Assembly (NCBI RefSeq): GCF_036231945.1
Contig: NZ_CP109599.1
Location: 868,001-932,000 of the forward strand
Length of the DNA: 64,000 nucleotides
Direction: 5' to 3'
Source: Streptomyces sp. NBC_01429
Lineage (GTDB): Bacteria; Actinomycetota; Actinomycetes; Streptomycetales; Streptomycetaceae
Below the pieces are notes generated by a model. The model saw only the letters and a program-made list of their open reading frames with translations, was not told the origin of the DNA and did not search any database. Shown here in pieces: positions 24,472-44,423 of the stretch (positions are counted from its first letter, which is position 1; each line of letters starts with the position of its first letter). The translations under genes were made by a program, and so were the position numbers.

Positions 24472-24670
24472 GGCTCCTCCGTGATTCGGCGTCGGCACTC
24501 GGGTTCGACGGTTGCGGTGTGTGCCCTCGCGTGCGACGCCGTGGGGCTGGTCATCGGTCAGGGAAGGGTGCGGGGACCGGCTGTTCGCCGGTGCGTCCGT
24601 CGGGCCTCCGGGGCCGCGGGTCCTCTTCTCACCGAAAGCGGCCGGCGGCTGTGCCGTCGGGCCGGGGTTC

Positions 24671-25558: not shown

Positions 25559-25681
25559 CGTGCCACCTATCCCTTCCATGGGAGCGGACAGCACGTATCC
25601 GTCAGCTGCTCCTTTCTCTCGGGAAAGGATCTCAGCAGAACGATGTAACGTCCTTTGATCGAGGTCATAATTGTCCCCCAC

Positions 25682-27320: not shown

Positions 27321-27339
27321 CGGGACGGCTCTTCCGAGC

Positions 27340-27376
27340 GGCCGGTCGACCAGGTGCCCCGCGCGCGTGGTCGACC
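27340..27376. terminator. Long hairpin between convergent regulator and halogenase genes
   Basis: Perfect 11-bp inverted repeat CCGGTCGACCA (27340-27350) / TGGTCGACCGG (27366-27376). It is nested in a wider pair ACGGGAC (27318-27324) / GTCCCGT (27386-27392). It follows the regulator stop directly, and the convergent operon ends at 27627. Confidence 0.65.
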
Positions 27377-27626
27377 GGTCCGTCCGCGTCCCGTGTCCGT
27401 CATCGCCGTGCGCGGCGCGGGCGCGCGGGCCCTCGTCCTGGGGCCCGGCGCGGGCCGGTTCGGCGGGGTCGGCCAGGCGAAATCCGAGGCGGCCGTCGTC
27501 GTGGGGAGAGGCCGAAGCCGCGGGGACAAGGCGTGGTTCTCCATTCGGTCGGGCAGCCGGACGCCGCGTGGGGCGGCGCCGGGTGCCGGGGTTCCGGGGA
27601 GCCCGGATTCCGGGGTGCGGGCGCCG

Positions 27627-28970: not shown

Positions 28971-29099
28971 GTGCGGTCGCCCTCTCTGCTGGCGGACTGT
29001 GGTCGGGGCACGGCGGGTGACGCGCGAACGCGTGTGTGGGGTGGGGAGGAGCTGATCCGGCGGACCGGCCGGGCGGGGTGACGCCCGGCCGGCCGCGCG

Positions 29100-30083: not shown

Positions 30084-30089
30084 CGCGGG

Positions 30090-30257
30090 CTACCGCTTCC
30101 GTCGGCGTACCGACACGATCAGGGAGATGACTGCACCGGCCACCAGTCCGAGCACGGCACCGCCGCGGTTGTCCTGACTGAAGGCCACGGCGGCGATCAC
30201 GGCCCCGATGAAGAGGGGATACGCGGGGGCCATGCCGTTCTGCTTGTTCTGGTTCAT
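30090..30257 (-). CDS. Small membrane protein of the lanthipeptide operon
   Basis: A 55-residue protein with two hydrophobic segments (YPLFIGAVIAAVAF and AVLGLVAGAVISLIVSV) joined by a polar QDNRGG turn and ending in RRRKR. It is located between the second LanM gene and the LLM oxidoreductase gene, same strand, spacing 26 bases and 6 bases. Producer immunity or transporter accessory roles are possible; I recognise no family. Confidence 0.68.
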   Translation of the reverse strand: MNQNKQNGMAPAYPLFIGAVIAAVAFSQDNRGGAVLGLVAGAVISLIVSVRRRKR

Positions 30258-30283
30258 CTGTCGTTCTTCCTTGTCGCAGTGGA

Positions 30284-33130
30284 TCAACGCGGGACATCCG
30301 TGGGGGCGTTCCCGTGGCGTGGCCGCGGGGGCGGGGGCTCCGGGAGGCCGGAGGCCGTCAGCGCGACCGGTACGAAGGCCGGGGGCCGGCCGTCGAGTGC
30401 CCGGTTCAGCAGGAGGTCCGTGTGGCCGATGCCCGACCAGCCGAACATGTAGCCCAGCAGTGAGGTTCTCCCCGGGCAGCCGGTGTGGAACCCCCGTTCG
30501 CGGGCCGCCCGCGTCACACGGACGCGGTGGTCGGCCGCCCGGTCGAGCAGGGACGGGTCCCGCAGGAGCGTACTCGCCGTGATCAGTGACTGGATCACTC
30601 CGGCGGAGCCGTGGCACACCGACAGGTCCACGGGGCCCTGCTCGCGCAACGTGGTGGCACGGTCGGCGAGTTGGGCGAGGCGGCGGTCGGCGGGGGTTCC
30701 GGTGCGGCCCGCGGAGGTGAGGATCTCCGCGGCGACGAGCAGCAGTCCGGCACTGCCGTTGCACCATCCCGGTACGGGGGGTTGTTCGGCGTCGGTGAGG
30801 CGTTCGGTCAGCCACTGCGCGGACGCGTCGGTCAGGGCTTGGTCGCCCAGGTGCCTGCCGATGCGGGAGACGGCCCAGCGCATGCCGACATCTCCGTGGG
30901 CGACATCGAACCAGGGGCGGTCCAGGGGTTTCCGTGCCTGGCTGAGGACCAGGTCGCACAGGCCGGTGAGCCGGTCCTCGTCCAGCAGAGGCGGCCGGCC
31001 CGCTTCGAGGCGTGCCAGGACGGCCATGAGGAGTCCCGCGGGGCCGTTGGCGAGGTCCGTCTCCAGGGTGCCGGTCTCGGTCCGTTCCGGGATCCGCTCC
31101 AGCAGCCGGGCCGTCCAGACGGGGTCCTGGCGGTCGGGCCGGGTGAGCAGGTGGGAGGCGGCTCCGGTGAAGACGCTCTCGGGGGCCCGCAGCAGCGCCT
31201 CGTCGTACACGCCGAGGAGTGCGTCCAGGCCGCGTTCGGCGCTGCGGTGCAGTGCGCCGAGGTCCGGGTCCTCCCGCGCGGCGGCCTGGAGGAAGGTGAC
31301 GATCCCTCCGTTGTCGTGGAAGGAGAGGTAGTTGCCCGGCACGATGGTGGGGACGCCCCTGTCGGGTCCCACTCCCCCGATCCAGCCGCTCTGTGTGCCG
31401 TGCTCGTCCTGGTGGGTCACCCGGATGTCCTGGAGGATGCGGGCCACCCGGGGCCACCACGGCTCGTCGGCGGTGGTGTGCAGGACGGGGGCGAAGACGC
31501 TGCCGGCGGCCATGACGTCGGGGGCCGCCTCGGCGAGTTCACCGAAGCACTCCTCCAGGACGAACCGGTGGTAGGTGTCGCTCTGTCCGGCGTGGAGCAC
31601 GAGGCCGGCGCGGGCGAAGTCGGCCGGTGACGACGGGTGGGCGGCGTCCTGGCGGGCGGTGTTGGTGGCCAGCTCGGTGGAGTCGGCGCGGGCCGTGAAG
31701 TAGGGGACGTTGCCGGTGTCGAGCGCGGTGCGTTCGGCCTCGCCGGCGAACACGCGGGCCTCGGGGCTCAGATGGCGGGGGAACTGCTTCAGCAGTCCCA
31801 GCAGGCGTGCCGTCTCGCCGGGGTCGCGCAGGTAGCGCGGCTGGGTGGCGGCGTCGATGAAGCGTCCGTACACCATCGTCGAGCGGATCAGGCAGCGTAC
31901 GGGCAGGCCGGGGTGGCGGTCGAGGACGCCCTCGACGGTCCCGCGCCGGCGGACGGCGCCCAGCGCGTCGGTGTATCCGGCGACGATGTCGCGGTAGTGC
32001 CGTACGGCCGCCAGCCGCTCCTCGCCGAGCCGCGGCACGTTCTCCTTGTGCCGGTAGACGACGGGTTCCCAGCGCAGGCGCAGGGCGTCGGTGCCGGCGC
32101 CGTCGATCACGGTCCTGCGCAGTTTGCCGGAGACCTGTTCGGGGCCGACGCCGACGCCCGCCATGATCACGTCGATCGGGGATTCGGGGCGGACGTTGGG
32201 GACCAGCATGGTGGAGGCGACGGATGCCTCGACGTGGTTGATGAGGCGGTTCTCCAGGGAGTCGGTCCCGGTCCCGGCGCCGGGGCGCAGCATCATCTCC
32301 GTGTCGATCACGCAGGGGTGCTCCCCCGCGGCCAGCAGGTTCTCGTCGTGGAGGTCGGAGGCTCCGATGGCGCCGAAGAGGGCGCACAGCGCGCCGAAGC
32401 GGTAGAAGTACCGGGCGGGCTGGTCGGACTCGGTCATGGGGCGGGGGGTGACGAACCGCTGCCATCCGTGGTCGCCGACGGACAGCGACGCCGGTACGCA
32501 GCCGTCGAGGGAGTGGGCGAGGTGGGGGGCGGCCGCGGCGTAGAGGTCGCGGACGAAGTCGTCGGCCGCCAGGGTGCGGGGTTTGAAGACCAGTTTTCCG
32601 CCGCCCGCGAGCCATGCGGCCACGACGCGCCGGTTGTCGTTGTGCGGGTCGCCGCCGGTGGTGATGAGGGAGACGAGAGTGTCGTGGGCGTCCGCCAGCA
32701 GGCCGCTCGCCACGAGCCGCGCCCGGTCCTGGTGGAAGGCGGTGAACAGGTCGTCGTACGCGTCGAGGAAGTGGTCGAGGACCACGGTGAGGCGGCGGCG
32801 CAGCACCTCGTAACGGCCGAGGAGGTCGCGGCAGTTGCCGGGGTCGTCGAGGTGGCGGCGGAACATGCGGAGCGCCTCGTCGCCGTCGGCGGACATGGGC
32901 AGTCCCCGGGCTTCCCTGAACGCGTGGAACTCGCCGATCAGGACGCGCAGGGAGTGTCCCTCGACGGTGGTGACGAGGTCTTCCCAGATCTGGTCGGTGA
33001 GGTGCCGCGCGTGCTCGGGCGTGGCGACGCGGGAGAGGGGTTCGCGCAGTCGGTCCACGACCGCCTGCCGGGGTACCCGGTCGGTGTAGAACGGCAGGAA
33101 GTCGACGACTGCCACCTGTGGGTCGGTCAC
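30284..33130 (-). CDS. lanM: Class II lanthipeptide synthetase LanM (second copy)
   Basis: A 948-residue bifunctional enzyme. The N-terminal DUF4135 dehydratase/kinase-like domain shows KLVFKPR (179-185), SDLHDENLL (258-266) and DTE (276-278), which phosphorylate and eliminate Ser/Thr. The C-terminal LanC-like cyclase shows the zinc ligands in GWCNG and CHGSAG. It starts with a GTG overlapping the LanT stop (GTGA). In two-component systems one LanM usually serves each peptide. This one has only low similarity to the other LanM here, so it probably handles the other precursor class; which one cannot be told from sequence. Confidence 0.93.
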   Translation of the reverse strand: MTDPQVAVVDFLPFYTDRVPRQAVVDRLREPLSRVATPEHARHLTDQIWEDLVTTVEGHSLRVLIGEFHAFREARGLPMSADGDEALRMFRRHLDDPGNCRDLLGRYEVLRRRLTVVLDHFLDAYDDLFTAFHQDRARLVASGLLADAHDTLVSLITTGGDPHNDNRRVVAAWLAGGGKLVFKPRTLAADDFVRDLYAAAAPHLAHSLDGCVPASLSVGDHGWQRFVTPRPMTESDQPARYFYRFGALCALFGAIGASDLHDENLLAAGEHPCVIDTEMMLRPGAGTGTDSLENRLINHVEASVASTMLVPNVRPESPIDVIMAGVGVGPEQVSGKLRRTVIDGAGTDALRLRWEPVVYRHKENVPRLGEERLAAVRHYRDIVAGYTDALGAVRRRGTVEGVLDRHPGLPVRCLIRSTMVYGRFIDAATQPRYLRDPGETARLLGLLKQFPRHLSPEARVFAGEAERTALDTGNVPYFTARADSTELATNTARQDAAHPSSPADFARAGLVLHAGQSDTYHRFVLEECFGELAEAAPDVMAAGSVFAPVLHTTADEPWWPRVARILQDIRVTHQDEHGTQSGWIGGVGPDRGVPTIVPGNYLSFHDNGGIVTFLQAAAREDPDLGALHRSAERGLDALLGVYDEALLRAPESVFTGAASHLLTRPDRQDPVWTARLLERIPERTETGTLETDLANGPAGLLMAVLARLEAGRPPLLDEDRLTGLCDLVLSQARKPLDRPWFDVAHGDVGMRWAVSRIGRHLGDQALTDASAQWLTERLTDAEQPPVPGWCNGSAGLLLVAAEILTSAGRTGTPADRRLAQLADRATTLREQGPVDLSVCHGSAGVIQSLITASTLLRDPSLLDRAADHRVRVTRAARERGFHTGCPGRTSLLGYMFGWSGIGHTDLLLNRALDGRPPAFVPVALTASGLPEPPPPRPRHGNAPTDVPR

Positions 33131-35319
33131 GCTCGTTCTCCCCCCACCAGCGTTTCCTCCCGCTGGTCGTCTCCGTACAGGTCTGCGTACAGCCCGCCCT
33201 CGCCGAGGAGTTCCTCGTGGGTGCCGGACTCGGTGATCGTGCCCTTGTCGAGGACGTAGATGCGGTCGGCCGACTGCACGGTGGCCAGGCGGTGCGCGAT
33301 GACGACCTGGGTGGCCCCGATCTCGGAGATGACCCGCATGACGCGGCGTTCGTTGATGTTGTCGAGTGCCGCGGTGGCCTCGTCCATGACCAGGATCCGC
33401 GGGTTGCCGAGCAGGGCGCGGGCGATGGCGATCCGCTGGCGCTGGCCTCCGGAGAAGTTGGCTCCCATGTCGGAGACGAGGGTGTTGAACCCCATGGGCA
33501 GGTCGTCGACGAAGTCGAGGATGCCGAGGCGGTCGCAGAAGGCGCGTACGTGCTCCTCGGAGAGGTCCTTGCCGAGGGTCAGGTTCTCCAGGATGGTGCG
33601 GTTGTGCATGTGCACCTCCTGGGGGATGTATCCGATGGTGCGGCGCAGGGCGGTCCTGTCGTACTCCTCGATGTCGTGGCCGCCGAACTCGATGGTTCCG
33701 CCGCTGGGGCCGTAGAGCCCGCAGATGATGCGGCCGAGGGTGCTCTTGCCGGAGCCGGAGGGACCGACGAGGGCGACGCGTTCTCCGGCGCCGATCGTCA
33801 TGGTGACGTCCTTGACCACCGTGTCGCTGTGGCGGGTGAAGCGGAAGCCGACGTTCTTGAGGGTGATGGAGGCCGAGGCGGGTTCGGTGCGGGTGCCGCC
33901 GGGTGACTCCGGTTCCTCCTCGGAGATCTCCGCGAGCCGGGACACGTACCGGGACACCTCGTTGAAGGAGGTGTATGTCTGGAAGACGGAGCCGGCGAGG
34001 GAGAAGTACGTCGCGGAGATCGCCTGGACCGACACGGCGGCCCCGAGGGAGAGGCCGCCGTGGCCGACCAGGTAGAGGCTGAACAGCAGCAGGACCAGCG
34101 GGCCGAACATCTGGGTCGTGGTGGACAGTCCGGCTATGCGGCCCTGCTGGAGCCGCATGCGCGTCTTCATCGCGTCGAGGGAGTTGCTGTAGGTCTGGCT
34201 CCAGCCGGTCAGGAACTCCTCGGCGTAGCCGCCCATCTTGATCGCCGGGATGGAGACGATGGCGTCGAGCTGGGTGCCCTGGCTCTTGGCGAGGTAGGCG
34301 ATCTCGGAGTCGACGGCCTCGGTGACGCGGTACCGCGTCCGCATCAGGTACAGGGCGTTGAGCAGGAAGAGTCCGACGGCGACCAGGCCCAGGCGCCACT
34401 CCGTGACCAGCAGGTAGACGGTGACGCAGACGAGGGTGCCCACGTCGAGGACGCCCTGGGCCATCCGGGAGGAGATCAGGTCGCGGACCGAGGTGACGCT
34501 GTTGAGCCGGTAGATGAGTTCACCTGGCGGCCGGGTGGTGAAGAACTTGAAGGGCAGGTTGAGGAGCCGGGTGAACGTCTGGCTCATCAGGTCCTTGCCG
34601 AGCACGGCGACCAGCGAGGAGAGCAGCATGACGCGCGTCAGGTGCAGCAGGTAGTAGCACAGGGCGGCGGCGACGACGGCACCGAGCAGCACGGCGGAGT
34701 CCTCGAGGCCGTCCCAGTGGGCGTACCGGTCGACGGCCCAGCGGGTGAGGACGGGGATGCCGAGGACGGTGCCGTACCCGCTGAGCGACAGCAGGGCCAC
34801 CATGCCGATGCGTTTCTTCGCTTCCCTGGTGAGCAGCAGGAACTTGCGCCACTCGGCGAACGGCCTGGCGCGCTTGCGCTCGAACTCCTCGCCGGGCTCG
34901 GCCGCGAGGACGATCTCGGTGAAGCCCTTCTCGAGTTCCTCGCGGCTGATGCGGCGGCGTCCGACCGCGGGGTCCATGACGACCGCGGTGCGGCCGTCGA
35001 AGTTCTCCAGGACGACGAAGTGGTAGTTCTCCCAGTAGAGGATGACCGGTGAGGTGAAGTCAGCGAGGGCGGCCACGTTCCTGACCCGGTACGGCTTGAC
35101 GCGCATGCCGCGTGATTGCAGGAACTGCGCGAGCTGGCCGGCGGAGAGGCCGTCGCGGCCGGCCTCCATGACCTCGCGGGCGCTGACGATCTCCTCGGCG
35201 CGCCCGTGGTAACGCAGCAGGGCGACGCACGAGCAGAGGCCGCACTCCGTCTGCGTGACCTGGGTGACGGTCGGTACCCGGCGTGCCGTGGCGGTTTTCT
35301 CCCGGCGGGGTGTCGTCAT
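33127..35319 (-). CDS. lanT: Peptidase-containing ABC exporter LanT (C39/AMS type)
   Basis: A 730-residue single-chain exporter. The N-terminal C39 peptidase has Cys26 in QTECGLC, His100 in ENYHFVV and Asp116 in MDPAVG; it should cut leaders after GG or GA. A six-helix transmembrane domain (about 175-460) and an ATPase with GPSGSGKST, FSGGQRQRIAIARA and ILVMDEATAALD follow. It removes the leader and exports the modified peptides. The alpha and beta precursors here end their leaders in GA and GG respectively, matching this protease. The ATG at 35319 lies 2 bases after the upstream LanM stop. Confidence 0.95.
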   Translation of the reverse strand: MTTPRREKTATARRVPTVTQVTQTECGLCSCVALLRYHGRAEEIVSAREVMEAGRDGLSAGQLAQFLQSRGMRVKPYRVRNVAALADFTSPVILYWENYHFVVLENFDGRTAVVMDPAVGRRRISREELEKGFTEIVLAAEPGEEFERKRARPFAEWRKFLLLTREAKKRIGMVALLSLSGYGTVLGIPVLTRWAVDRYAHWDGLEDSAVLLGAVVAAALCYYLLHLTRVMLLSSLVAVLGKDLMSQTFTRLLNLPFKFFTTRPPGELIYRLNSVTSVRDLISSRMAQGVLDVGTLVCVTVYLLVTEWRLGLVAVGLFLLNALYLMRTRYRVTEAVDSEIAYLAKSQGTQLDAIVSIPAIKMGGYAEEFLTGWSQTYSNSLDAMKTRMRLQQGRIAGLSTTTQMFGPLVLLLFSLYLVGHGGLSLGAAVSVQAISATYFSLAGSVFQTYTSFNEVSRYVSRLAEISEEEPESPGGTRTEPASASITLKNVGFRFTRHSDTVVKDVTMTIGAGERVALVGPSGSGKSTLGRIICGLYGPSGGTIEFGGHDIEEYDRTALRRTIGYIPQEVHMHNRTILENLTLGKDLSEEHVRAFCDRLGILDFVDDLPMGFNTLVSDMGANFSGGQRQRIAIARALLGNPRILVMDEATAALDNINERRVMRVISEIGATQVVIAHRLATVQSADRIYVLDKGTITESGTHEELLGEGGLYADLYGDDQREETLVGGERA

Positions 35320-35321
35320 GG

Positions 35322-38300
35322 TCAGCGCCCTCCCGCGGTGAGGGTGAGCGGGCACAGGCGCAGGTCCCGGTCGATCCGGTTGAGCAGGTGCAGGGCGAGC
35401 CCGGCGCTGCCGACCATGAGGCTGTTGGTGTGCGCGTACCGGCTGTCGGGGTCGGCGGTCTTGCGGCGGAAGGTCTCGGGCCTGAGCCAGCGGCGTTCCT
35501 GCTCGCGCACCCGGGTGTGCAGCGGGGTGCCGTGCGGGCCCGCGATGTGGCGCAGGACGGCGTGGTTGCCGAGGTCGCCGTGGCACCAGGTGAGGTTGCG
35601 GCCGAAGCCGAGGCGGAGCGTGTTGTCGACCGCCTGGTCGCGCGGGGCGGTGACGTCGTCGGCGCCGGGCACGGTGGCGTAGGCGGACAGGGCCAGGGCG
35701 ACGCTGGTGGAGCCGTGGCACCAGCCGGTCGCGAAGGTCCCCTCGCCCGATCCGCGGGAGGACCAGTTCCGCTCGTCCGGGTGGTAGAACCCGTCGAGGC
35801 GCCTCACGAGGGTGCCGAGGACCGTCTCGACACGCGGCCGGTGGGCGGCGGGGAGCAGGCCGTGGGCGCGGGAAAGGGCGTGGACGACTCCGCTGATGCC
35901 GTGGGCGAATCCCGACTGGTCGAGGACCGAGCGGGCGAAGGGGCCGTCCTGCTGGATCTCCTGGGCGAGCAGGAGCGCGATCTCGGTGACCGCCTCGTTC
36001 TGCGCGGGGCCGAGGATGTCGGTAACGCAGTTGAGGACGCCGGCGAGTCCGCTGATGACGTCCAGCGGGAGGTTGCCCGTCCGCTCGGCGCGGATCTGGT
36101 CGAGGACCAGGGGGACGGCGCCCCGGGCGGCGTTCACCCAGTCGTCCTCGCCGCTGAGGCGGCCGGCCGCGGAGAGGGTGAACAGGATGCCGGCCATGCC
36201 GGTGTAGCCGCCGTATCCGGCCTGCTGGAGGCTGCGGGACTCGTAGCGGTGGGAGGCGAGGATGTCGGCGGTCGCGGAGAAGACCTGGCGGGCGGCGCCG
36301 AGGTAGCGGTCGTCGTCGAGGACGTGTCCGGCGGCGCAGAGGGTGAGGGCGATCCCGGTCCGCCCGGTGTAGAGGTCGTAGCCGAGGACGCCGGGGGGCC
36401 AGGGGCGGTCTGCCTCGGCGGACGCGAGCGGGCCGATCCAGGTCCTGGGCAGGTGGGCGAAGCGGTCGGGCAGGGAGGTCTCGACGAGGTCGTCGCAGAG
36501 TTCGCGCGCGAGGGCGAGGAGTTCACGGCGCTCGTCGGGGGCGGCGTCGGTGTCCGCGGCGGGGGCCCGGGTGTCCTGCGCGGGAGAGAGGTGGTTGTCC
36601 GGGAACTGCGCGGTGAACGCGGAGCGGATGAGGCGCAGTTGCTGGGCGAGGTCGCGTTCGCCGAGGCGGGCGGCCTTGGCGAGGGCGAGGTCGAGCGGGG
36701 AGTGGCCGAGCGCGGCGCCGACCTCGTGGGCGTCGCCGTCGCAGACGCGGGTGGCGGTGGCGCCGACGGTGAAGTAGGGGACGTCCCGTTCGGCCATCTG
36801 GCGCAGTTCGGAGACGATCAGCGGCCGGGCCGAGGTCTTGCTGGCGATGGCGACGCGCTTGAGCAGCGCGAGGTAGGTGGCCGGGTCGTCGAGCGCGCTG
36901 GGTCCCGTGGTCATGCGCAGGATCTGGGAGTAGAGCGCGGTGGGGTTGTGGACGTAGCGGATGCGCAGGCCCTCGGCGGTGGTGCGCAGCAGCGCGGTCC
37001 AGGTGTCGGGTGCGGCGAGGAGCGCGCGGTAGGTCCGGGTGAAGCCGTCGGCCATCTCGCGGCCCAGGCGCAGGATCTCCTGCTCGGTGCGCTCGCCGAC
37101 GACGGTCCTGCGGCCCTGGACGCCCTGGGGCCTGAGGGAGAGTCTGATGCGGTCCGTGTAGGGCGCGTCGAAGGTCACCTGCTTGAAGGGGGAGGTGCCG
37201 CGCCCGGGTCCGCCGAGGAATCCGAGGTCGACGTGGCCGCCGCGGTCCTTCTTCCGGCCGGCCATCACCAGGGGCAGGATTCCCACGCCGTAGACCGACT
37301 GCCCGATGGTGGTGTACGCGTTCCCCTCGGCTTCGGGGACCGGCCCGTCGTGGACCCGTTCCGGGTGGAGCAGGGTTTCGAGGTCCACCGGGACGGGACC
37401 GCGGCGGGTCGGCAGGATGTTCTCGAAGTGCATGTCGCGCGCGTTCAGCGCGTAGAGGACGGCGGCGAGTTCGCCGCTGTCGCGCATGAAGCGCTCGGAG
37501 ATGTCGGAGACGTCCTCGGTCTCGATGTGTTCGACGTATCCGTAGCCGTCGCGGGCGAGCGCCGTGGCGGTGACGAGCCGGGTGCCGAAGGACGAGTTGA
37601 GTTCGCGGGCGAGGCGGACGTAGGCGGCCTCGCAGGAGACGTCGCGGGGTTTGTAGACCAGACGTGCGCCGGACTCGAAGGTGAGGACGCAGACGGCGCG
37701 GCCGTGGTGGTGGGTGTCGCCCTCGGGGGTGCCGAAGGAGCGCAGGCGGTCGTCCGGTGCGAGGGCGAAGGTGTCGCGGAGGGCCTCACGGTCGGCGGCG
37801 ACCCGGGAGCAGAGCTCGACGACGGCGTCGACGGTGGAGGCCAGCACCACCGGGGTGAGGTCGCGCAGGACGGGAAAACTGAGACCTCCGGTGGCGGTGA
37901 ACGAGCCGCGGGCGGCCTCGTCCACGAAGTACCGGTAGCGCTCCTCGGAGCTGTCCCCCTTCAGGAGTCCCTGTTCGCGGGCGTGGTTGACGGCCGCGAC
38001 CAGCGGCCGGGTGCACGTCTCGCGGACGCGGATCTCGACCCTGCCGAGCAGTTCGATCAACGCGGTGCCGGGGTCGGCGAACAGACCGGGGAAGGCGCCC
38101 AGCGGATCTCCGTCCGCGGCGCCCGCCGCGATGGACCTGATCACGCGCTGGAACGGGTACTGCTCCGGCCGGGTCAGCCAGTCCTCGACGATCCCGGGCC
38201 GCTCGGACGCGGCGGCGGGCCGCTGCGGCTCACCGGCGACCACGGCGAGGACGTGGTCGTCGAAGGGCGCGAGCGGCGTGATGGTCTCACCGATCTCGGT

Positions 38301-38339
38301 CTCGTCGAACTCCGGGTAGAGGTTGATCGCAGATCTCAT
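35322..38339 (-). CDS. lanM: Class II lanthipeptide synthetase LanM (first copy)
   Basis: A 1005-residue dehydratase/cyclase. The dehydratase domain has ARLVYKPRDVS, NARDMHFENIL and PVDLETLL. The cyclase domain has Zn ligands in TGWCHGS and TWCHGDLGNHAVL. AAGGAC lies just before the ATG at 38339. It is the first enzyme gene after the precursors and the attenuator-like hairpin, on the same strand. It differs clearly in length and sequence from the other LanM (30284-33130), as expected if each modifies a different peptide of a two-component lantibiotic. Confidence 0.95.
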   Translation of the reverse strand: MRSAINLYPEFDETEIGETITPLAPFDDHVLAVVAGEPQRPAAASERPGIVEDWLTRPEQYPFQRVIRSIAAGAADGDPLGAFPGLFADPGTALIELLGRVEIRVRETCTRPLVAAVNHAREQGLLKGDSSEERYRYFVDEAARGSFTATGGLSFPVLRDLTPVVLASTVDAVVELCSRVAADREALRDTFALAPDDRLRSFGTPEGDTHHHGRAVCVLTFESGARLVYKPRDVSCEAAYVRLARELNSSFGTRLVTATALARDGYGYVEHIETEDVSDISERFMRDSGELAAVLYALNARDMHFENILPTRRGPVPVDLETLLHPERVHDGPVPEAEGNAYTTIGQSVYGVGILPLVMAGRKKDRGGHVDLGFLGGPGRGTSPFKQVTFDAPYTDRIRLSLRPQGVQGRRTVVGERTEQEILRLGREMADGFTRTYRALLAAPDTWTALLRTTAEGLRIRYVHNPTALYSQILRMTTGPSALDDPATYLALLKRVAIASKTSARPLIVSELRQMAERDVPYFTVGATATRVCDGDAHEVGAALGHSPLDLALAKAARLGERDLAQQLRLIRSAFTAQFPDNHLSPAQDTRAPAADTDAAPDERRELLALARELCDDLVETSLPDRFAHLPRTWIGPLASAEADRPWPPGVLGYDLYTGRTGIALTLCAAGHVLDDDRYLGAARQVFSATADILASHRYESRSLQQAGYGGYTGMAGILFTLSAAGRLSGEDDWVNAARGAVPLVLDQIRAERTGNLPLDVISGLAGVLNCVTDILGPAQNEAVTEIALLLAQEIQQDGPFARSVLDQSGFAHGISGVVHALSRAHGLLPAAHRPRVETVLGTLVRRLDGFYHPDERNWSSRGSGEGTFATGWCHGSTSVALALSAYATVPGADDVTAPRDQAVDNTLRLGFGRNLTWCHGDLGNHAVLRHIAGPHGTPLHTRVREQERRWLRPETFRRKTADPDSRYAHTNSLMVGSAGLALHLLNRIDRDLRLCPLTLTAGGR

Positions 38340-38376
38340 TGCTGTCCTTCTGCACGCGATGTGAAGTGCCCCCAAA

Positions 38377-38422
38377 GGCGGGGCGGAATGGACGCTTGAG
38401 GGCCGGTCCGTTCCGCCCCGCC
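38377..38422 (-). terminator. Hairpin between precursor genes and lanM (attenuator candidate)
   Basis: Perfect 12-bp arms GGCGGGGCGGAA (38377-38388) and TTCCGCCCCGCC (38411-38422), extendable inward by several pairs with one G-U. It lies between the last precursor stop and the lanM start, on the operon transcript. Such partial terminators keep precursor mRNA in excess over synthetase mRNA. Confidence 0.75.
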
Positions 38423-38446
38423 CGCTTACACCGACCTACAGGGCAC

Positions 38447-38608
38447 TCAGCAGGAGCTGGTGCACTTGGTGGTCGGGCAGAAGGCGACGCTGGCCGCCAC
38501 CGTCACCGCGACGGAGACCGGCGTCGTACCACCGGTGACATCGGCCTCGCTCAGCTCTATGAGCTCGGCCTCGTCGTACGCCCCGAGGACGTCCTTCTCG
38601 TTCTGCAT
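38447..38608 (-). CDS. lanA2: Lanthipeptide beta precursor, copy 2
   Basis: A 53-residue precursor. The acidic leader (MQNEKDVLGAYDEAELIELS, then EADVTGG) ends in a double-Gly cleavage site. The 26-residue core starts TTPVSVAVTV and ends CPTTKCTSSC. That ending is the signature of two-component lantibiotic beta chains (haloduracin beta, lichenicidin beta). Core Cys residues at 44, 49 and 53 can form (methyl)lanthionines with upstream Ser/Thr; the core has no Trp or Tyr. GGAAGGAAG precedes the ATG. It is too short for most gene callers. Confidence 0.92.
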   Translation of the reverse strand: MQNEKDVLGAYDEAELIELSEADVTGGTTPVSVAVTVAASVAFCPTTKCTSSC

Positions 38609-38643
38609 GATCTTCCTTCCCCACCCCTGGCAGAGGTCAGTTG

Positions 38644-38805
38644 TCAACAGGAGTTGGTGCACTTGGTGGTCGGGCAGAACGCGGCACTGGCCGCGATCGT
38701 GACCGCGACGGAGACCGGCGTCGTACCACCGGTGACATCGGCCTCGCTCAACTCGATGAGCTCGGCCTCGTCGTACGCCCCGAGGACGTCCTTCTCGTTC
38801 TGCAT
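38644..38805 (-). CDS. lanA2: Lanthipeptide beta precursor, copy 1
   Basis: A 53-residue paralogue of the downstream beta precursor with an identical leader and GG site. The core differs at three positions: Val36 to Ile in VAVTIAAS, Val41 to Ala, and Ser52 to Asn in CTNSC. The Cys pattern (CPTTKC, then C) is conserved. GAGGGAGAG lies before the ATG at 38805. The start-to-start distance to the other copy is 197 bases, and even the spacers are similar, so this is a recent tandem duplication. Confidence 0.92.
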   Translation of the reverse strand: MQNEKDVLGAYDEAELIELSEADVTGGTTPVSVAVTIAASAAFCPTTKCTNSC

Positions 38806-38833
38806 GGCTCTCCCTCGTCTGCCGTGGCAGAGC

Positions 38834-38998
38834 TCAGTTGCAGTTGGGCTGGCATTCCTTGGTGAGGGTGCACCAGCCGCCGCTGTTGCCCAGCGCGTCC
38901 GAGAGCGAGAAGGTGTTGGTGGTGCACGCGCCGTACGCTATGCCGTCGAAGTCCTGCTCTTCGATCTCCTCGAGGAGGGACAGGTCGCCCTGGTACAT
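38834..38998 (-). CDS. lanA1: Lanthipeptide alpha precursor, lacticin 3147 A1-like
   Basis: A 54-residue precursor. The leader MYQGDLSLLEEIEEQDFDGI ends AYGA, a GA-type site for a C39 protease. The core (residues 25-54) starts CTTNTFSLSDALGN and ends WCTLTKECQPNCN. It closely follows lacticin 3147 A1, including the mersacidin-like CTLTxEC ring that binds lipid II. The Cys residues are at 25, 43, 49 and 53. Trp42 is the only Trp, a possible target of the operon's halogenase. AAGGGAG lies 5 bases before the ATG. First gene of the operon. Confidence 0.94.
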   Translation of the reverse strand: MYQGDLSLLEEIEEQDFDGIAYGACTTNTFSLSDALGNSGGWCTLTKECQPNCN

Positions 38999-39159
38999 GG
39001 GGTTCTCCCTTGTGTGGTGGATGCGAGCCCCGAACTGTCGTTCGTGACCAGCGCCTGTACCGATCATCTGAGACCGACATTCGGCCGCCGCATCGCCGAC
39101 CGGGGAGAGTCCGCATCGCCCGCGCATAAGCTCCGCATGCCCGGACCGGGGCGGTGGTG

Positions 39160-39924
39160 TCAGGCGTCGCGGCGCCGCAGGGCCAGGTATCCGGCGAGCG
39201 CCGCGCAGGCGGTCCACACCGCGAGGACGCCGAGCCCCGACCAGGCGCCGAGCACATAGCCGTCGGGCACCTCGCGGTACAGGACCAGTCCGCCGGCCTG
39301 ATCGGGCAGGAACTGCGCGGCCTTTCCGACGCCGGGGATGTTGGTGAGGATCGTCGAGACCGTGAAGAAGAGCGGGACGAGGATGCCCATGGTGATCGCG
39401 GAGGAGCGCAGCAGGACGGCGATGCCCATGGTGAACAGGCAGAGCAGGGTGGTGTAGAGCACCGCGCCGGCCAGGGCGGTCGGCACACCGTCGGCGGTGA
39501 GGGAGACGCTCTCGTCGCCCATGGTGGCCTGGGCGAGGAGGAAGCTGGTGAACACCGCGGCGACGGAGACGACCAGCGCCGTCAGGCCGCCGGCGAGCAT
39601 CTTGGCCGCGTAGAAGACGCCGCGCCTCGGCACCGCGGCCAGGGAGCTGCGGATGGTGCCGGAGGAGTACTCGCTGGTGACGACGAGGACTCCGAAGACG
39701 ACGAGTCCGATCAGGCCGAGCCGCAGTCCGCTGAATCCGGTGGAGACCGGGTCGAAGGAGGCGGGGGCGGGCTTGTCCGCGTACTGGTGCCGCACGACGG
39801 CTCCGGTGAGCACCGCGAAGGCGAGGCTGAGGGCGACGCAGAGCACCAGGCTCCACGGCACGGAGCGCAGGGTGCGCATCTTGGACAGCTCGAATCCGAC
39901 GGCCGCGTTCAGGTCGTTGCTCAT
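39160..39924 (-). CDS. ABC-2 type permease (LanE/LanG-like self-protection candidate)
   Basis: A 254-residue membrane protein with six hydrophobic segments of the ABC-2 type; VVTSEYSSGTIRSSLAAVPRR is the usual first cytoplasmic loop. It follows the ATPase gene with an ATGA overlap and lies just upstream of the precursor genes on the same strand. Such pairs often expel lantibiotic from the producer's membrane (LanFEG role), though general drug efflux is possible. Confidence 0.88.
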   Translation of the reverse strand: MSNDLNAAVGFELSKMRTLRSVPWSLVLCVALSLAFAVLTGAVVRHQYADKPAPASFDPVSTGFSGLRLGLIGLVVFGVLVVTSEYSSGTIRSSLAAVPRRGVFYAAKMLAGGLTALVVSVAAVFTSFLLAQATMGDESVSLTADGVPTALAGAVLYTTLLCLFTMGIAVLLRSSAITMGILVPLFFTVSTILTNIPGVGKAAQFLPDQAGGLVLYREVPDGYVLGAWSGLGVLAVWTACAALAGYLALRRRDA

Positions 39925-40838
39925 CGCACTGCCTCCTGCTCGGCGCGGTACTCGACGGCGTCCGCGGTGAACTGCATGAACGCGTCCTCCAGCGAGGCGG
40001 TCCGCGGGCTGACCTCGTGGACGGCTATCCGGTGCTCGGCGGCCAGGGTGCCCACCGTCCTGGGGTCGGTGCCGACCGCCTCCAGCGCGCCGTCGGGTCC
40101 GGTGTCCACGTGGACACCGCGGGCGGCCAGCAGGTCGCGCATGCGCTCGGGTTCGGGTGTGCGGATGAGCACGTAGGAGCGGGAGTTGTCGGTGATGAAG
40201 GCGTCCACGGAGGTGTCGGCGAGGAGCCGGCCGCGGCCGATCACGATCAGGTGCTGGGCGGTCAGCGCCATCTCGCTCATGAGGTGGCTGGAGACCAGGA
40301 CCACCCGGCCCTCGTCGGCCATGCGCTTCATCAGGTCCCGGATCCACTTGACGCCCTCCGGATCGAGGCCGTTGACCGGCTCGTCCAGCAGCAGGGCACG
40401 GGGGGAGCCGAGGAGGGCGGCGGCGATGCCGAGGCGCTGCGCCATGCCCAGCGAGAGGCCCTTCGCGCGCTTGTCGGCGACGCTCGCGAGTCCGACGGCC
40501 TCCAGGAGTTCGTCGACGCGGCCGGGCGGGATGCGGTTGCTGCGGGCCAGGCCCGCCAGGTGTCCGCGCACGCTACGGCCGCCGTGCACCGCGCGGGCGT
40601 CGAGCAGGGCGCCGACGGTTTTCAGGGGGCGGGGCAGGTCCTCGTAGCGCTTGCCGTCGATGAGGACCTCGCCCGAGGTGGGGCGGTCGAGGCCGATCAT
40701 CGCGCGGATCGTCGTGGACTTGCCGGCGCCGTTGGGGCCCAGGAATCCGGTCACCCGTCCCGGCTCGACGCGGAAGCTGAGCGCGTCGACCGCCCGGGTC
40801 CTTCCGTACCATTTCGTCAGCTCTCGGACTTCGATCAT
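39921..40838 (-). CDS. ABC transporter ATP-binding protein (LanF-like)
   Basis: A 305-residue ATPase: Walker A GPNGAGKST, a Q-loop region, signature LSLGMAQRLGIAAAL, and Walker B ALLLDEPVNGLDPEG. The C-terminal extension (TASLEDAFMQF) is typical of ABC-2 exporters of the bacitracin/lantibiotic self-resistance type. Coupled to the downstream permease. Presumed producer immunity, from cluster context. Confidence 0.9.
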   Translation of the reverse strand: MIEVRELTKWYGRTRAVDALSFRVEPGRVTGFLGPNGAGKSTTIRAMIGLDRPTSGEVLIDGKRYEDLPRPLKTVGALLDARAVHGGRSVRGHLAGLARSNRIPPGRVDELLEAVGLASVADKRAKGLSLGMAQRLGIAAALLGSPRALLLDEPVNGLDPEGVKWIRDLMKRMADEGRVVLVSSHLMSEMALTAQHLIVIGRGRLLADTSVDAFITDNSRSYVLIRTPEPERMRDLLAARGVHVDTGPDGALEAVGTDPRTVGTLAAEHRIAVHEVSPRTASLEDAFMQFTADAVEYRAEQEAVR

Positions 40839-40965
40839 CGCACTGAATCTCCTGTGGTGAACGTTGTGTACAGGGAGGTGGGTACGGGAAAGGGACGGGC
40901 CGGTACCCCACGGCCCGTTCGGTCGCGCGTCCGCCCCCGGGCGTGCCCCCGGGGTGACGGGAGTG

Positions 40966-40996
40966 GTCGGCCGGCGGGGCGTGCCGCCGGGCCGAC
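40966..40996 (-). terminator. GC-rich hairpin downstream of the winged-helix regulator
   Basis: Arms GTCGGCCGGCGG (40966-40977) and CCGCCGGGCCGAC (40984-40996) with one bulge and loop GGCGTG, close after the regulator stop at 41005 and before the next operon. Confidence 0.5.
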
Positions 40997-41004
40997 GGGA
41001 GCGG

Positions 41005-41313
41005 TCAGTCGGCGGGGCGTGCCGCCCGCGCCGTCGCCGCGATCCGTTCGAGCGCCGCCGCGTGCCGCAGGAACGCCTCCCGCCCCTTCGGGGTGAGCCG
41101 GGCGAGGGTGCGCCGGACGCCCACCCCCACCTGCTTGCGCACCTCGACGTACTCCTCGGCGGCGAGGGCCGACAACTGCTTGGACAGGGCGGAGTCGCTG
41201 GAGCCGATCGCGTCCCGGATGAATCCGAACTCGGTCCATCCGGCGGGCGCCAGCAGGGCGACGATCGTCAGCCGCGGGGCCGGGTGCAGGAAGGCGTCGA
41301 AGTCGGCGTCCAT
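41005..41313 (-). CDS. Winged-helix transcriptional regulator
   Basis: A 102-residue DNA-binding protein: LTIVALLAPAGWTEFGFIRDAI, then SALSKQLSALAAEEYVEVRK as the recognition region, VGVGVRRTLARLTPKGREA as the wing. This is the MarR/HTH_34-like small repressor type found with ABC transporter operons. Its ATG overlaps the stop of the upstream membrane gene by one base (TGATG). It likely binds the three TACTTTC/GAAAGTA half-sites at 41849-41897. Confidence 0.88.
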   Translation of the reverse strand: MDADFDAFLHPAPRLTIVALLAPAGWTEFGFIRDAIGSSDSALSKQLSALAAEEYVEVRKQVGVGVRRTLARLTPKGREAFLRHAAALERIAATARAARPAD

Positions 41314-41819
41314 CAGATCCGCCGCTCGGCCCGGCGCCGCAGCCGCTCCTCCGCGTACCCCCGCGCGCGGGGTGCCACCAGCAGGCCGGCACCGACCACC
41401 ACCGCGGCGGCGACGGCGTGGGGTCCCGGTACGCCGCCCGAGGAGAGCGCCGCGGCCAGTCCCCGGAACACCGCGTACCCGGCGAGTCCGCAGACCAGCC
41501 CGATCAGCACGGCGCGAGGGGCCGGACGGTTGCGCACCGGGGCGCCGTAGGTGTGACGGACCACCAGCAGCGCCACCAGCAGCAGCCCCGGGAGCAGCAC
41601 CGCGCCGCCCCAGGGGTTGGGCAGGTCGTAGGAGGCGAAGGAGACGAACAGCAGCAGCGCCGCCGTCAGGAGCGTCGGGCGGGACAGCCCGAAGCGGAGT
41701 TCGGCGACGCCGGACTGCTCCTGGCGTCTGCGGATGTCGTCGAGCGCGGCGGCGGCATCGGCCGGCGTCACGGCCCGCTGGTCGGAGGGGTTCCTGTCGT
41801 GCTGGTCGTCGGACGCCAT
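41313..41819 (-). CDS. Four-helix membrane protein of unknown function
   Basis: A 168-residue protein with a charged N-terminal segment (about 40 residues, with DDIRRRQEQSG) and four hydrophobic helices (TLLTAALLLFVSFASY and others), ending in an Arg-rich cytosolic tail. It is co-transcribed with the winged-helix regulator and divergent from an ABC exporter. It resembles the membrane partner of small repressor/transporter loci; its role is unknown. Confidence 0.78.
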   Translation of the reverse strand: MASDDQHDRNPSDQRAVTPADAAAALDDIRRRQEQSGVAELRFGLSRPTLLTAALLLFVSFASYDLPNPWGGAVLLPGLLLVALLVVRHTYGAPVRNRPAPRAVLIGLVCGLAGYAVFRGLAAALSSGGVPGPHAVAAAVVVGAGLLVAPRARGYAEERLRRRAERRI

Positions 41820-41848
41820 CGGCCCTCGCTTCTTCCTGAGGAGCACTG

Positions 41849-41897
41849 CTACTTTCCTGTCGAGAAAGTAGCAGGTATTTTCCCAACAGGAAAGTAG
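41849..41897. promoter_or_regulatory. Three-half-site operator in the divergent promoter
   Basis: CTACTTTC at 41849-41856, GAAAGTAG at 41863-41870 and GAAAGTAG at 41890-41897. The outer arms extend to a perfect 12-bp inverted repeat CTACTTTCCTGT/ACAGGAAAGTAG, and the inner arms to GCTACTTTC/GAAAGTAGC. It sits between divergent starts (41819 and 41945), so one repressor could control both operons. Confidence 0.78.
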
Positions 41898-41944
41898 ACT
41901 CCGCGCACACATCGACGGCACAGGCAGGCAGAAGGGGGAAGGCT

Positions 41945-42910
41945 GTGAAGCCATTGGTTCTCGAGGGAGTGTCGAAGCGGTTCGGATCGCAACAGGCCCT
42001 GGACTCACTGACATTGACCGTGAGACCCGGGGAGATCTCCGGCTTCGTCGGGGGCAACGGGGCGGGCAAGACCACCGCCATGCGCATCGGCGTCGGGGTC
42101 CTCGCACCGGACCGGGGACAGGTCCTGTGGGGTGAGGCTCCGGTCGGGCGGCTGGAGTCGGCGCGGTTCGGCTACATGCCGGAGGAGCGCGGCCTGTACC
42201 CGAGGATGACCGTGGCCAGGCAACTGGTCTACCTCGGCGAACTCCACGGGCTCTCCCGCGCCGACGCCCGCGAGGCGATGCTCCGCTGGACCGAGCGGCT
42301 GCGGATCACACAGCACCGCGACAAGCGGGTCAACACCCTCAGCCTGGGCAACCAGCAGCGCGTGCAGCTGGCCGCCGCCCTCGTCCACGACCCCGAGGTC
42401 CTCGTCCTGGACGAGCCGTTCTCCGGGCTCGACCCGCTCGCCGTCGACGACATGAGCGACGTCCTGCGCGACAAGGCCGCGCTGGGCGTGCCCGTGCTCT
42501 TCTCCAGCCACCAGCTGGACCTGGTCGAGCAGCTCTGCGACCGGGTCGCGATCGTACGCGCCGGACGCCGGGTGGCCTGCGGCTCCCTGGCGGAGCTGCG
42601 GCCCGCGCAGGCGAGCGGCCAGGTGTACGTCGAGGTGGAGGGCGCCGGCGAGGACTGGCCCGCGGGGTGCCCCGCCGCCGCCGGCTTCAAGGCCCACCAG
42701 CAGGGCGTCCTGGTCGACCTCGCCGCGGGCCGCAGCGAGAACGACCTGCTGGTGGAGGCGGTGCGGCACGGCACGGTCCGGGAGATGCGGCGGCACGTGC
42801 CCAGCCTCGCCGAACTCTTCCGGGACCTGGTCGAACCGGGCGGTGACCCGCCAGCGCCGGACGCGGGCTCCGAGGACCGTACCGCCGAGATGGACGAGGT
42901 GACCGCGTGA
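41945..42910 (+). CDS. ABC transporter ATP-binding protein (NatA-like)
   Basis: A 321-residue ATPase: GGNGAGKTT Walker A, FGYMPEERGLYPRMTV, LSLGNQQRVQLAAAL signature, LVLDEPFSGLDPLA Walker B. The C-terminal segment HVPSLAELFRDLV is typical of Na+/drug exporters of the NatA group. GTG start at 41945, with a purine-rich site before it. Coupled to the permease by a GTGA overlap. Probably cluster-associated export or immunity, controlled by the winged-helix repressor. Confidence 0.91.
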   Translation: MKPLVLEGVSKRFGSQQALDSLTLTVRPGEISGFVGGNGAGKTTAMRIGVGVLAPDRGQVLWGEAPVGRLESARFGYMPEERGLYPRMTVARQLVYLGELHGLSRADAREAMLRWTERLRITQHRDKRVNTLSLGNQQRVQLAAALVHDPEVLVLDEPFSGLDPLAVDDMSDVLRDKAALGVPVLFSSHQLDLVEQLCDRVAIVRAGRRVACGSLAELRPAQASGQVYVEVEGAGEDWPAGCPAAAGFKAHQQGVLVDLAAGRSENDLLVEAVRHGTVREMRRHVPSLAELFRDLVEPGGDPPAPDAGSEDRTAEMDEVTA

Positions 42911-44082
42911 AGCGCCCCGGTTCCGAGCGGCACACGCCGCGCCCCGCCCGCGTCCGCCTGGTCTACGTCCGGGAACTGAGGGCGCGGATGATGACCAGGG
43001 GCTATGTCATCAGCCTGGCCCTGCTCTCCCTCATCACCTTCGGCCTGGTGATCGGCTTCAGCCTGATGGGGCACACCACCTCCGCCACCGTGGCCGTCTG
43101 CGGCACACCGGCCCCGGCCCTCGGCACCGCGCCGCCCGGCGTCCGGGTGACGTCCTGCGACGGCATGCCGCGGGCGCGCGGGCTCGTCAGGGACAACGAC
43201 GCGGACGCGGCGGTCGTCGTCGGCGCGGGCCGCGCCTCGCTGCTGACCCGCGCCGACACCAGCGATCAGGCACGGGCGGGCGCCGAGGCGCTGGCCAGGA
43301 CCTGGGCAGGCAACCAGGCCCTGCTCCGGCAGGACGTCGACCTGGGGCGGCTCGCGCGGGACACCGAGGCGGCGGCGCCCACCTCCGTGACCGTCGGGAA
43401 ATCGGTGGGCTCGCTCCAACTGGGCGCGGCGGCGAGCCTGATCATCGTGCTGTTCATGCAGATCGTCAATCAGGGTTCGGTGATCGCGCAGGGCGTGGTC
43501 GAGGAGAAGTCCACCCGGGTGGTGGAGGTGCTGCTCGCCACGCTGACCCCGCTGGAACTGCTCGTGGGCAAGGTCGCCGGGATCGTCACGGCAGGCATGG
43601 TGCAGGTGGCCGCGATGCTGGGGGCGGTGGTGGGGGCGCAGTCGGTGCTCTCCGAGCCGGCCACCGCGATGCCGGGGCCGCGGGCCCTGCTGGTGACGGT
43701 GCTCTGGTTCCTGCTGACCTTCGCCATGTTCGCCTCGCTGTACGCGGCGGCCGGATCGCTGGTGTCCAGACCCGAGGACCTCCAGGGCGTGCTGACGCCG
43801 GTGATGCTGCTCGCCCTGGCGCCGGTCGGCGCGGCGACGGCCGCCGCCGCCCAGCTCTCCGCGCCCTGGGTCTCGGTCGCGCAGTACGTGCCGCCGTTCT
43901 CCGGGCTGCTGATGCCGCTCAAGGCGTCCGTGGGCACGGTGACGGTGCAGGAGCAAATGGCCGCCGCGGGAATCCTGTTGGCCGTCACGGCCTGCTGCAT
44001 GGTGCTCGCGGCGCGGATCTACCGCAACTCGGTGCTGCGGGTGGGCGCGCCGGTACGGTGGCGCCAGGCGCTGGCCGCCTGA
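42907..44082 (+). CDS. ABC-2 type permease (NatB-like)
   Basis: A 391-residue membrane protein: first helix GYVISLALLSLITFGLVIG, a large external domain (about residues 65-170, with two Cys), then five helices including VEEKSTRVVEVLLATLTPLELLVGK (the conserved coupling segment of NatB/CcmB-type permeases). GTG start overlaps the ATPase stop. Forms the exporter with the previous gene; substrate unknown. Confidence 0.9.
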   Translation: MKRPGSERHTPRPARVRLVYVRELRARMMTRGYVISLALLSLITFGLVIGFSLMGHTTSATVAVCGTPAPALGTAPPGVRVTSCDGMPRARGLVRDNDADAAVVVGAGRASLLTRADTSDQARAGAEALARTWAGNQALLRQDVDLGRLARDTEAAAPTSVTVGKSVGSLQLGAAASLIIVLFMQIVNQGSVIAQGVVEEKSTRVVEVLLATLTPLELLVGKVAGIVTAGMVQVAAMLGAVVGAQSVLSEPATAMPGPRALLVTVLWFLLTFAMFASLYAAAGSLVSRPEDLQGVLTPVMLLALAPVGAATAAAAQLSAPWVSVAQYVPPFSGLLMPLKASVGTVTVQEQMAAAGILLAVTACCMVLAARIYRNSVLRVGAPVRWRQALAA

Positions 44083-44423
44083 CCCGGAACTCCTCCCGCC
44101 GGGAGGGACGGGCCCGGCGGGCGACCGCCGGGCCGAGGCCCTCCCCCGCTCGCCGCGTCCCCGATCCGTCGCGCCGCCTGTTCCGCCGTTGGGCCGCGCC
44201 GTCGCCTCCCCGTTCCGCCGTTGGGCCGCGCCGTCGTCGTCCGATCCGGCACGGTCGCCACCGCAACCGGCCTGCCGCCGCCCGACCCCGCGGGCCGACC
44301 CGGGCGGGCCCATCGGTGGGGGCGGGCCCATCGGTGGGGAGCGGCGCACGGTCCTCCTCCGCCCACCCCGTCGGACGGACCCCTCACTCTCCTCGTTCTC
44401 CTCATCCAAGGGCGGTAGACGCC
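44083..44423. repeat. Spacer with two sets of direct repeats
   Basis: GTTCCGCCGTTGGGCCGCGC and its next bases occur twice (44180-44204 and 44212-44236). A tandem 18-bp unit GCGGGCCCATCGGTGGGG occurs at 44304-44321 and 44322-44339. I see no gene in the 340-base spacer before the antiporter gene. Confidence 0.75.

Follow-up and report, generated by a model that had tools for sequence, protein, structure and literature searches.

Precursor genes of a putative two-component lantibiotic in Streptomyces sp. NBC_01429 and their association with a FAD-dependent halogenase

Introduction

What do three short open reading frames (ORFs) just before a lanthipeptide synthetase (LanM) gene of Streptomyces sp. 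NBC_01429 encode, and which peptide would be the substrate of the halogenase encoded in the same cluster? The ORFs lie in a 64,000-nucleotide stretch of contig NZ_CP109599.1 (positions 868,001 to 932,000; assembly GCF_036231945.1), which was analysed as a whole and is referred to as the window; coordinates below are positions in it. A sequence-only reading of the window had interpreted the ORFs as one alpha and two beta precursors of a two-component lantibiotic. The present analysis indicates that one of them probably encodes the alpha precursor, and the other two a nearly identical pair of beta precursors, of a class II two-component lantibiotic resembling birimositide and lacticin 3147. Maturation is predicted to involve two LanM synthetases, a LanJC-type reductase and a flavin adenine dinucleotide (FAD)-dependent halogenase. 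Two-component lantibiotic pairs are already known in Streptomyces. New are a halogenase clade that occurs in lanthipeptide clusters of both class II and class V and has apparently been transferred between them, its link with the loss of core cysteines (Cys), and a 20.6-kb block (23534-44151) that recurs in two other species.

Precursor genes

The alpha precursor (54 amino acids (aa); 38834..38998, minus strand) matches the NCBIfam model NF000539 (plantaricin C family) at 4.8e-14, above the cut-off. The lacticin 3147-like CTLTKEC that had been read in it is present and fits the CTLTxEC motif of the alpha family. Its C-terminal part, CTTNTFSLSDALGNSGGWCTLTKECQPNCN, would be the core released by the predicted cleavage after GA, and it contains four Cys, eight Ser/Thr and one tryptophan (Trp). 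The adjoining beta precursors, both of 53 aa and on the minus strand, are nearly identical to each other. Beta1 (38644..38805) ends in CPTTKCTNSC and beta2 (38447..38608) in CPTTKCTSSC, in agreement with the CPTTKCTxSC endings noted earlier, and both match NF038161 (LchA2/BrtA2) above the cut-off (1.4e-21 and 1.5e-21, respectively). The predicted cleavage of beta1 after GG would give the core TTPVSVAVTIAASAAFCPTTKCTNSC, and the core of beta2 is TTPVSVAVTVAASVAFCPTTKCTSSC. The position on one strand just before a LanM gene also stood, with the start of LanM1 107 bp past beta2.

Homologues of alpha were found in 36 database proteins (E<=1e-3). In a sample of 392 Streptomyces genomes, an alpha match is encoded in 14, own included, and ten near relatives have an alpha identity of 81-98%. 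A second beta is also present in three related loci (L037, L038, L039), and a single beta in two others (L040, L026). The ratio of nonsynonymous to synonymous substitution rates (dN/dS), determined against the relatives G192 and G282, lies within 0.06-0.51 for the three precursors. Judged by family-model matches, homologues and selection, the three predicted precursor ORFs exceed chance. The observation of the precursors was confirmed in this way and its interpretation partly supported.

Synthetases, transporter and reductase

LanM1 (1005 aa; 35322..38339, minus strand) matches TIGR03897 with 521 bits, above the cut-off, and aligns with LicM2 and CylM. LanT (730 aa; 33127..35319, minus strand) combines a C39 peptidase domain (PF03412, 2.4e-27) with ABC transporter domains (PF00664, PF00005). 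LanM2 (948 aa; 30284..33130, minus strand), with a start that overlaps the LanT stop, also matches TIGR03897 above the cut-off, with 330 bits. Starts at 35319 (LanT) and 33130 (LanM2) were adopted. LanM1 and LanM2 of the window share 24-28% identity, in segments, with the LanM of the other type from ten near loci. By eye, both retain the D-H pair, the K in V(Y/F)KPR, DxHxxN with the D that comes after it, and the zinc motifs WC...CHG, residues with catalytic roles. Mutated LanM active sites had been named as an observation that would speak against the cluster; the motifs are intact and this objection therefore falls away.

LanM1 is the likely alpha synthetase and LanM2 the likely beta synthetase, because in four related loci (L024, L025, L027, L029) each precursor adjoins its own LanM. 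The gene order in these loci is alpha-LanM1-LanT-ABC-beta-second LanT-LanM2-LLM. They have two LanT genes, one adjoining each LanM/precursor pair.

The luciferase-like (LLM) enzyme (29100..30083, minus strand; PF00296, 1.5e-24) is a putative reductase of the LanJC type, predicted to convert dehydroalanine to D-alanine (D-Ala). It matches F420 LLM families, all below their cut-offs, and its best PDB match is the F420-dependent Mer (46 bits). Its placement in the LanJC family rests on PF00296 and on kinship, with 39-45% identity to the LLM enzymes of seven class V clusters. The second LanM, the halogenase and the LLM enzyme had all been listed in the sequence-only reading, and all were recovered by profile matches; no reading error was found. 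The two-component class II assignment is likewise upheld by profile matches, the conserved LanM motifs and the conservation of the whole block. Eleven genes were compared with G192 and G282; they have dN/dS values of 0.06-0.51 and no stops, and are intact and under purifying selection.

Conserved block and cluster family

The whole window was compared by blastn with 55.6 kb of G192 and 59.7 kb of G282. The matches span 23549 (G282: 23534) to 44151 in four main pieces, and outside 23534-44151 no match of at least 150 bp to these stretches was found (E<=1e-10). The outer limits of this similarity define a conserved block of 20.6 kb (23534..44151), so that the boundaries of the cluster could be drawn without annotation. 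One block occurs in three species, in surroundings that do not match, and horizontal movement as a unit is therefore favoured.

The search for homologous clusters that had been proposed yielded relatives in the 14 of 392 genomes mentioned above and in 34 loci from a scan of GTDB species genomes. Of the 13 other Streptomyces genomes, ten hold near family members with LanM1, LanT, LanM2 and the LLM enzyme, and three hold distant ones (LanM1 about 30%, no LLM match). The GTDB scan used an alignment of eight LanM1 sequences as the query, with gene content per locus taken from best matches only. It gave 32 actinobacterial loci with LanM1 identities of 38-87% and two remote loci. Two-component clusters of this type are an established actinobacterial family. 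The LLM gene was not seen in seven of the 32 actinobacterial loci (L047, L048, L050-L053, L060); in these sister loci, alpha is 40-53% identical to the window alpha or gives no match. Two Nocardioides loci (L065, L066; LanM1 38%) have the LLM gene and a beta without an N-terminal Cys, and no halogenase was found in their genomes at E<=1e-90.

A halogenase lies within the fetched stretch in four of the 34 loci (Streptomyces sp. SolWspMP-5a-2, Streptomyces sp. 1-11, S. thermodiastaticus JCM 4840 and S. olivaceus NRRL B-3009). Several fetched stretches end soon after the LLM gene, and therefore a genome-wide halogenase search was made for 16 of the 23 class II loci with the LLM gene only. Together with seven genomes covered by the 392-genome sample, no halogenase was found in the genomes of these 23 loci at E<=1e-90. 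Every candidate was scored in the 16-genome search, which had no positive genome inside it; the surveys of 392 and 394 genomes with the same query served as the positive control.

The halogenase and its distribution

The FAD enzyme (447 aa; 27627..28970, minus strand) is of the FasV/CndH/CmlS type. Halogenases rank first among its PDB matches by sequence and by structure, and among the 60 PDB sequences listed, FasV scores 305 bits versus 24-34 bits for Trp halogenases. The GxGxxG motif, the catalytic Lys, the WxWxIP motif and the fold of this halogenase type are all present, with Lys73 and WxWxIP unchanged across all 18 rows of the alignment, and halogen transfer is predicted from these features. 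FasV is presumed here to be an active halogenase, in line with the molecule name and title of its PDB entry; no paper naming it was found in the open PubMed Central (PMC) library, searched by 8ZOP and FasV. A Trp halogenase of the MibH-like sequence type was considered and rejected on the low scores of the Trp halogenases, a set of rows that does not include MibH itself.

The enzyme could also be a monooxygenase that hydroxylates or oxidises a residue of one peptide. Profile matches to peptide hydroxylases of the QhpG/LodB type exist and this explanation was retained as a rival, but as the nearest relatives these hydroxylases were rejected on a weak PDB sequence match, the peptidyl Trp dihydroxylase 7ctq reaching only 27.5 bits. 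The closest solved relatives are labelled halogenases, and the retention of Lys73 and WxWxIP in every aligned row also argues for halogenation, which makes a monooxygenase rather unlikely.

Halogenase genes with at least 55% identity were sought in two genome samples (392 and 394 genomes), in which, as in the sample of 382 genomes used for JmjC below, 3-5 candidates per genome were scored. Twelve were found, own included, all in lanthipeptide clusters: five class II two-component and seven class V. In total, 41 database proteins are at least 55% identical to the halogenase; genomic context was covered for the 12 genomes and for L037, giving 13 loci, all of them in lanthipeptide clusters. The S. 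olivaceus halogenase (L040/L118) is 84% identical to that of the window. In the tree, the class II copies are nested inside the class V copies, with G393 as an outlying member and an inner clade of 11 clusters (five class II, six class V). This topology suggests an apparent transfer of the halogenase from class V to class II clusters.

The halogenase, the JmjC oxygenase and the LuxR regulator could instead form a neighbouring pathway beside an ordinary birimositide-type cluster. The S. olivaceus loci L118 and L119 have no JmjC match, and in G297 the three genes lie on the opposite side of the cluster, adjoining the immunity ABC genes, which speaks for a separate pathway. On the other side, the three genes still adjoin the cluster after the move in G297, the block boundaries enclose them in two differing neighbourhoods, and every halogenase of at least 55% identity seen in the two samples belongs to a lanthipeptide cluster. 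A neighbouring pathway is therefore very improbable, and the halogenase is treated here as a part of the lantibiotic cluster.

The seven class V loci with the halogenase (L095-L098 and L115-L117; genomes G263, G209, G163, G323, G545, G483 and G393) carry this clade beside HopA1 and encode two to four precursors each; in six of them, one precursor has a Trp and the others do not. Judged by their precursors, these loci may be two-component class V systems. Paired precursors were also considered as a special feature of class V halogenase clusters, which was rejected, since class V loci that lack the halogenase often have such pairs as well. In genome G105, a 45% homologue of the halogenase occurs twice on one 8.6-Mb contig in opposite orientation (C1:59402, locus L089, and C1:7654959, locus L093).

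Candidate halogenation sites

The Trp next to the CTLTKEC ring, the only one in alpha, is taken here as marginally the likeliest halogenation site. In class II, a beta Cys N-terminal to CPTTKC is found in none of six halogenase loci, in 21 of 23 loci with the LLM gene only and in five of six with neither gene (no beta was obtained from L050, and the remote loci L069 and L070 were not counted). In class V, an internal Cys is present in 1/18 peptides with the halogenase, 36/38 with the LLM gene only and 9/11 with neither, or, counted by loci, in 1/7, 22/23 and 6/8, respectively. The class V count leaves out 25 of 56 halogenase-free HopA1 loci in which no precursor was recognised by pattern (10 with and 15 without the LLM gene), some of the stretches ending at contig ends. 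Fisher tests of halogenase versus LLM-only loci gave 5.9e-5 for class II and 8.0e-5 for class V; the loci are related, and therefore the independent events may be as few as two. This Cys pattern favours ring-free beta-type peptides as the predicted halogenase substrate.

The Trp itself discriminates little. Alpha differs little between loci that have the halogenase and loci that lack it, and its Trp is present in both groups, so class II is uninformative on this residue. A Trp-bearing core occurs in each of the 11 inner-clade clusters, while none of the four precursors of G393 has a Trp; in class V, such cores are found in six of seven halogenase loci versus 17 of 23 LLM-only loci with recognised precursors. 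Because Trp is nearly as common without the halogenase, it was demoted as proof of the halogen site. The comparative evidence for the alpha Trp is weak, and the N-terminal half of beta, which has no ring, competes with it on almost equal terms.

In this rival explanation, the target of the FAD enzyme is a hydrophobic stretch of the beta (and class V) peptides that is rich in Ser/Thr and free of rings, and a halogen would stand in the place of a former thioether ring; dehydroalanine, dehydrobutyrine or the residue in place of the lost Cys would be the candidate targets. Core Cys loss accompanies the halogenase in both classes, and the L067 beta TTTPACVAVSIAASAAF compared by eye with the window sequence TTPVSVAVTVAASVAF resembles a Cys to Ser change. 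If the enzyme passed from class V to class II, as the tree suggests, it should recognise a feature common to both. However, the loci are related, Cys-less cores also occur without the halogenase (the Nocardioides betas of L065/L066, the LLM-free L047 beta, class V L168, and the LLM-free L195 and L202), and one class V halogenase peptide (G483) has an internal Cys. We also know of no report of flavin halogenases acting on dehydroamino acids, which counts against this explanation. As a complete account, it is possible rather than probable. A wider proposal, in which one halogenase clade distinct from Trp halogenases serves two unrelated lanthipeptide classes, moved from class V to two-component class II and there substitutes for a thioether ring through halogenation of the dehydrated, ring-free part of the partner peptide that lost its Cys, is doubtful.

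Trp halogenation of peptides has precedents in MibH, SrpI and ChlH, which act on Trp (PMC12615548), and this favours the alpha Trp. Because this chemistry is known, Trp was given a narrow lead over beta. The two sites appear close to even, with the alpha Trp marginally ahead.

Comparison with known systems

The closest known system is birimositide, not roseocin. Birimositide (brt) from Streptomyces rimosus WC3908 is a two-component lantibiotic whose alpha resembles that of lacticin 3147 and whose LanJC is luciferase-like; its masses fit a Ser to D-Ala conversion (PMC7268733). It shares with the window this alpha type, a beta of the LchA2/BrtA2 model, the LanJC and an actinobacterial host. In contrast to the window, one alpha and one beta are described; the comparison follows the description in PMC7268733 and not the MT037000 gene list. 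The word halogenase is absent from the main text of that paper. A lacticin-3147-like cluster in S. olivaceus was described in 2020, with both precursors, both LanMs, a transporter and a sprOR homologue in place of ltnJ (PMC7794033, S17 Fig legend). According to the same paper, sprOR homologues accompany canonical lanthipeptide clusters and a class V gene pair, and its main text does not contain the word halogenase. The S. olivaceus loci L040/L118 hold the genes of the published cluster plus the halogenase, although the published strain may differ from theirs; they differ from the window in a single beta, and L118/L119 in the lack of JmjC.

Roseocin had been put forward as the actinomycete precedent, but it is not the closest one. 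Like the window, roseocin from S. roseosporus is a two-component lantibiotic of an actinomycete, but it depends on a single promiscuous LanM (PMC10027976), whereas the window has two LanMs rather than a single RosM-like LanM for both peptides. It also has a disulphide in alpha and other precursor families (PMC7268733). In the roseocin family, two LanMs are described only in a Micromonosporaceae type (type 3; PMC10027976). The one LanM and the other precursor families rule roseocin itself out as the nearest relative; birimositide and the S. olivaceus cluster are nearer.

To our knowledge, lacticin 3147 and staphylococcin C55 of Firmicutes have no halogenase. They resemble the window in the alpha motif, two low-identity LanMs and the logic of Ser to D-Ala conversion, and differ in having LanJA instead of an LLM enzyme (PMC7268733). 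NAI-107 (microbisporicin) is, like the predicted product, an actinobacterial lanthipeptide with an FAD halogenase, MibH, and its chlorinated Trp adjoins the presumed target contact (PMC12615548, PMC10373908). However, it is not a two-component lantibiotic, and MibH is caught by a Trp-5-halogenase profile (PMC12871659), unlike the FasV/CndH/CmlS-type enzyme of the window. The class V clusters of lexapeptide, pristinin and rosin share an LLM/LanJ reductase with the window, and seven class V loci carry the same halogenase clade; class V differs in dehydration by HopA1/APH-type proteins and in a Cys decarboxylase. The main text of the rosin paper has no halogenase (PMC12291118). The sequence-only reading had known of no earlier description of the gene combination. 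This held in part: two LanMs with a luciferase-like gene were already in print (PMC7794033), and no halogenase was found described in a two-component or class V lanthipeptide cluster in the open PMC literature, a scope without subscription papers and supplements.

Proposed maturation

The genes, their motifs, conservation, order and clade membership lead to a predicted route of reactions, processing sites, halogen site, product and activity. LanM1 would dehydrate and cyclise alpha, and LanM2 would do the same for beta1 and beta2. LanT would cleave off the leaders, after GA in alpha and after GG in beta, and export the peptides. By analogy, the LLM enzyme is predicted to reduce dehydro residues, converting at least one dehydroalanine to D-Ala; the obvious site, by the precedent of the birimositide and lacticin 3147 alphas, would be Ser7 of the alpha core. 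The halogenase would then halogenate one peptide, with the alpha Trp chosen by analogy to NAI-107. For assumed cleavage sites and dehydration numbers, the calculated [M+H]+ values of alpha are 3039.264 (7 dehydrations), 3041.280 (one D-Ala in addition) and 3075.241 (one D-Ala and one Cl in addition). For beta1 with 8 dehydrations they are 2400.130 and, chlorinated, 2434.091; for beta2 with 9 dehydrations, 2369.124 and, chlorinated, 2403.085. Once exported, alpha is predicted to bind lipid II and to recruit beta, upon which pores would form. Synergy of the mature peptides and lipid II binding by alpha are predicted from the known systems, and producer immunity would be conferred by the ABC pair encoded at 39160-40838.

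If true, the cluster would have no precedent in the open PMC literature searched, either as a two-component lantibiotic cluster with a halogenase or as a case in which a ribosomally synthesized and post-translationally modified peptide (RiPP) is served by a halogenase of the FasV/CndH/CmlS type. Among two-peptide antibiotics directed at lipid II, the combination of D-Ala with a halogen would be a new set of tailoring modifications. The presence of the halogenase in both classes hints at a common, predicted chemical decoration. An enzyme clade common to class II and class V raises the question of which peptide feature it reads, for which the Cys loss in both classes offers a concrete hypothesis.

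Other genes of the block and its surroundings

No flavin reductase was found among the 13 block genes scanned with Pfam, most of the remaining window not having been scanned gene by gene. At the edge of the block lies a JmjC_2-type iron/2-oxoglutarate (Fe/2OG) oxygenase (23524..24498, minus strand; PF08007, 3.5e-26), a possible second tailoring enzyme. Homologues of at least 81% identity occur in four of 382 genomes (own included), each in a halogenase-bearing class II cluster, and the other 12 homologues in this sample have at most 42% identity. In G282, a TGA is listed within the genome match of JmjC, yet the pairwise alignment of 314 codons has no stop. Bacterial JmjC (PF08007) homologues occur in RiPP-like contexts (PMC12710340), and a second, hydroxylating tailoring step is possible.

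Regulators encoded in the block are a SARP regulator (24671..25681, minus strand; PF03704, PF00486), a LuxR-type regulator (26280..27320, plus strand; PF00196), which is in the block of both G192 and G282, and a winged-helix regulator (41005..42087, minus strand; PF13601). Predicted immunity proteins are an ABC-2 membrane protein (LanE-like; 39160..39924, minus strand; PF12679) and an ABC ATPase (LanF-like; 39921..40838, minus strand), for which the best NCBIfam model is TIGR03740 (lantibiotic protection ABC) with 179 bits, below the cut-off of 310. A second ABC transporter pair (41945..44082, plus strand; PF00005, PF12698) is inside the conserved block. Outside the block, LUD-domain/LutB-type and CCG-domain proteins, resembling those of lactate utilisation, are encoded at 50965-53192.
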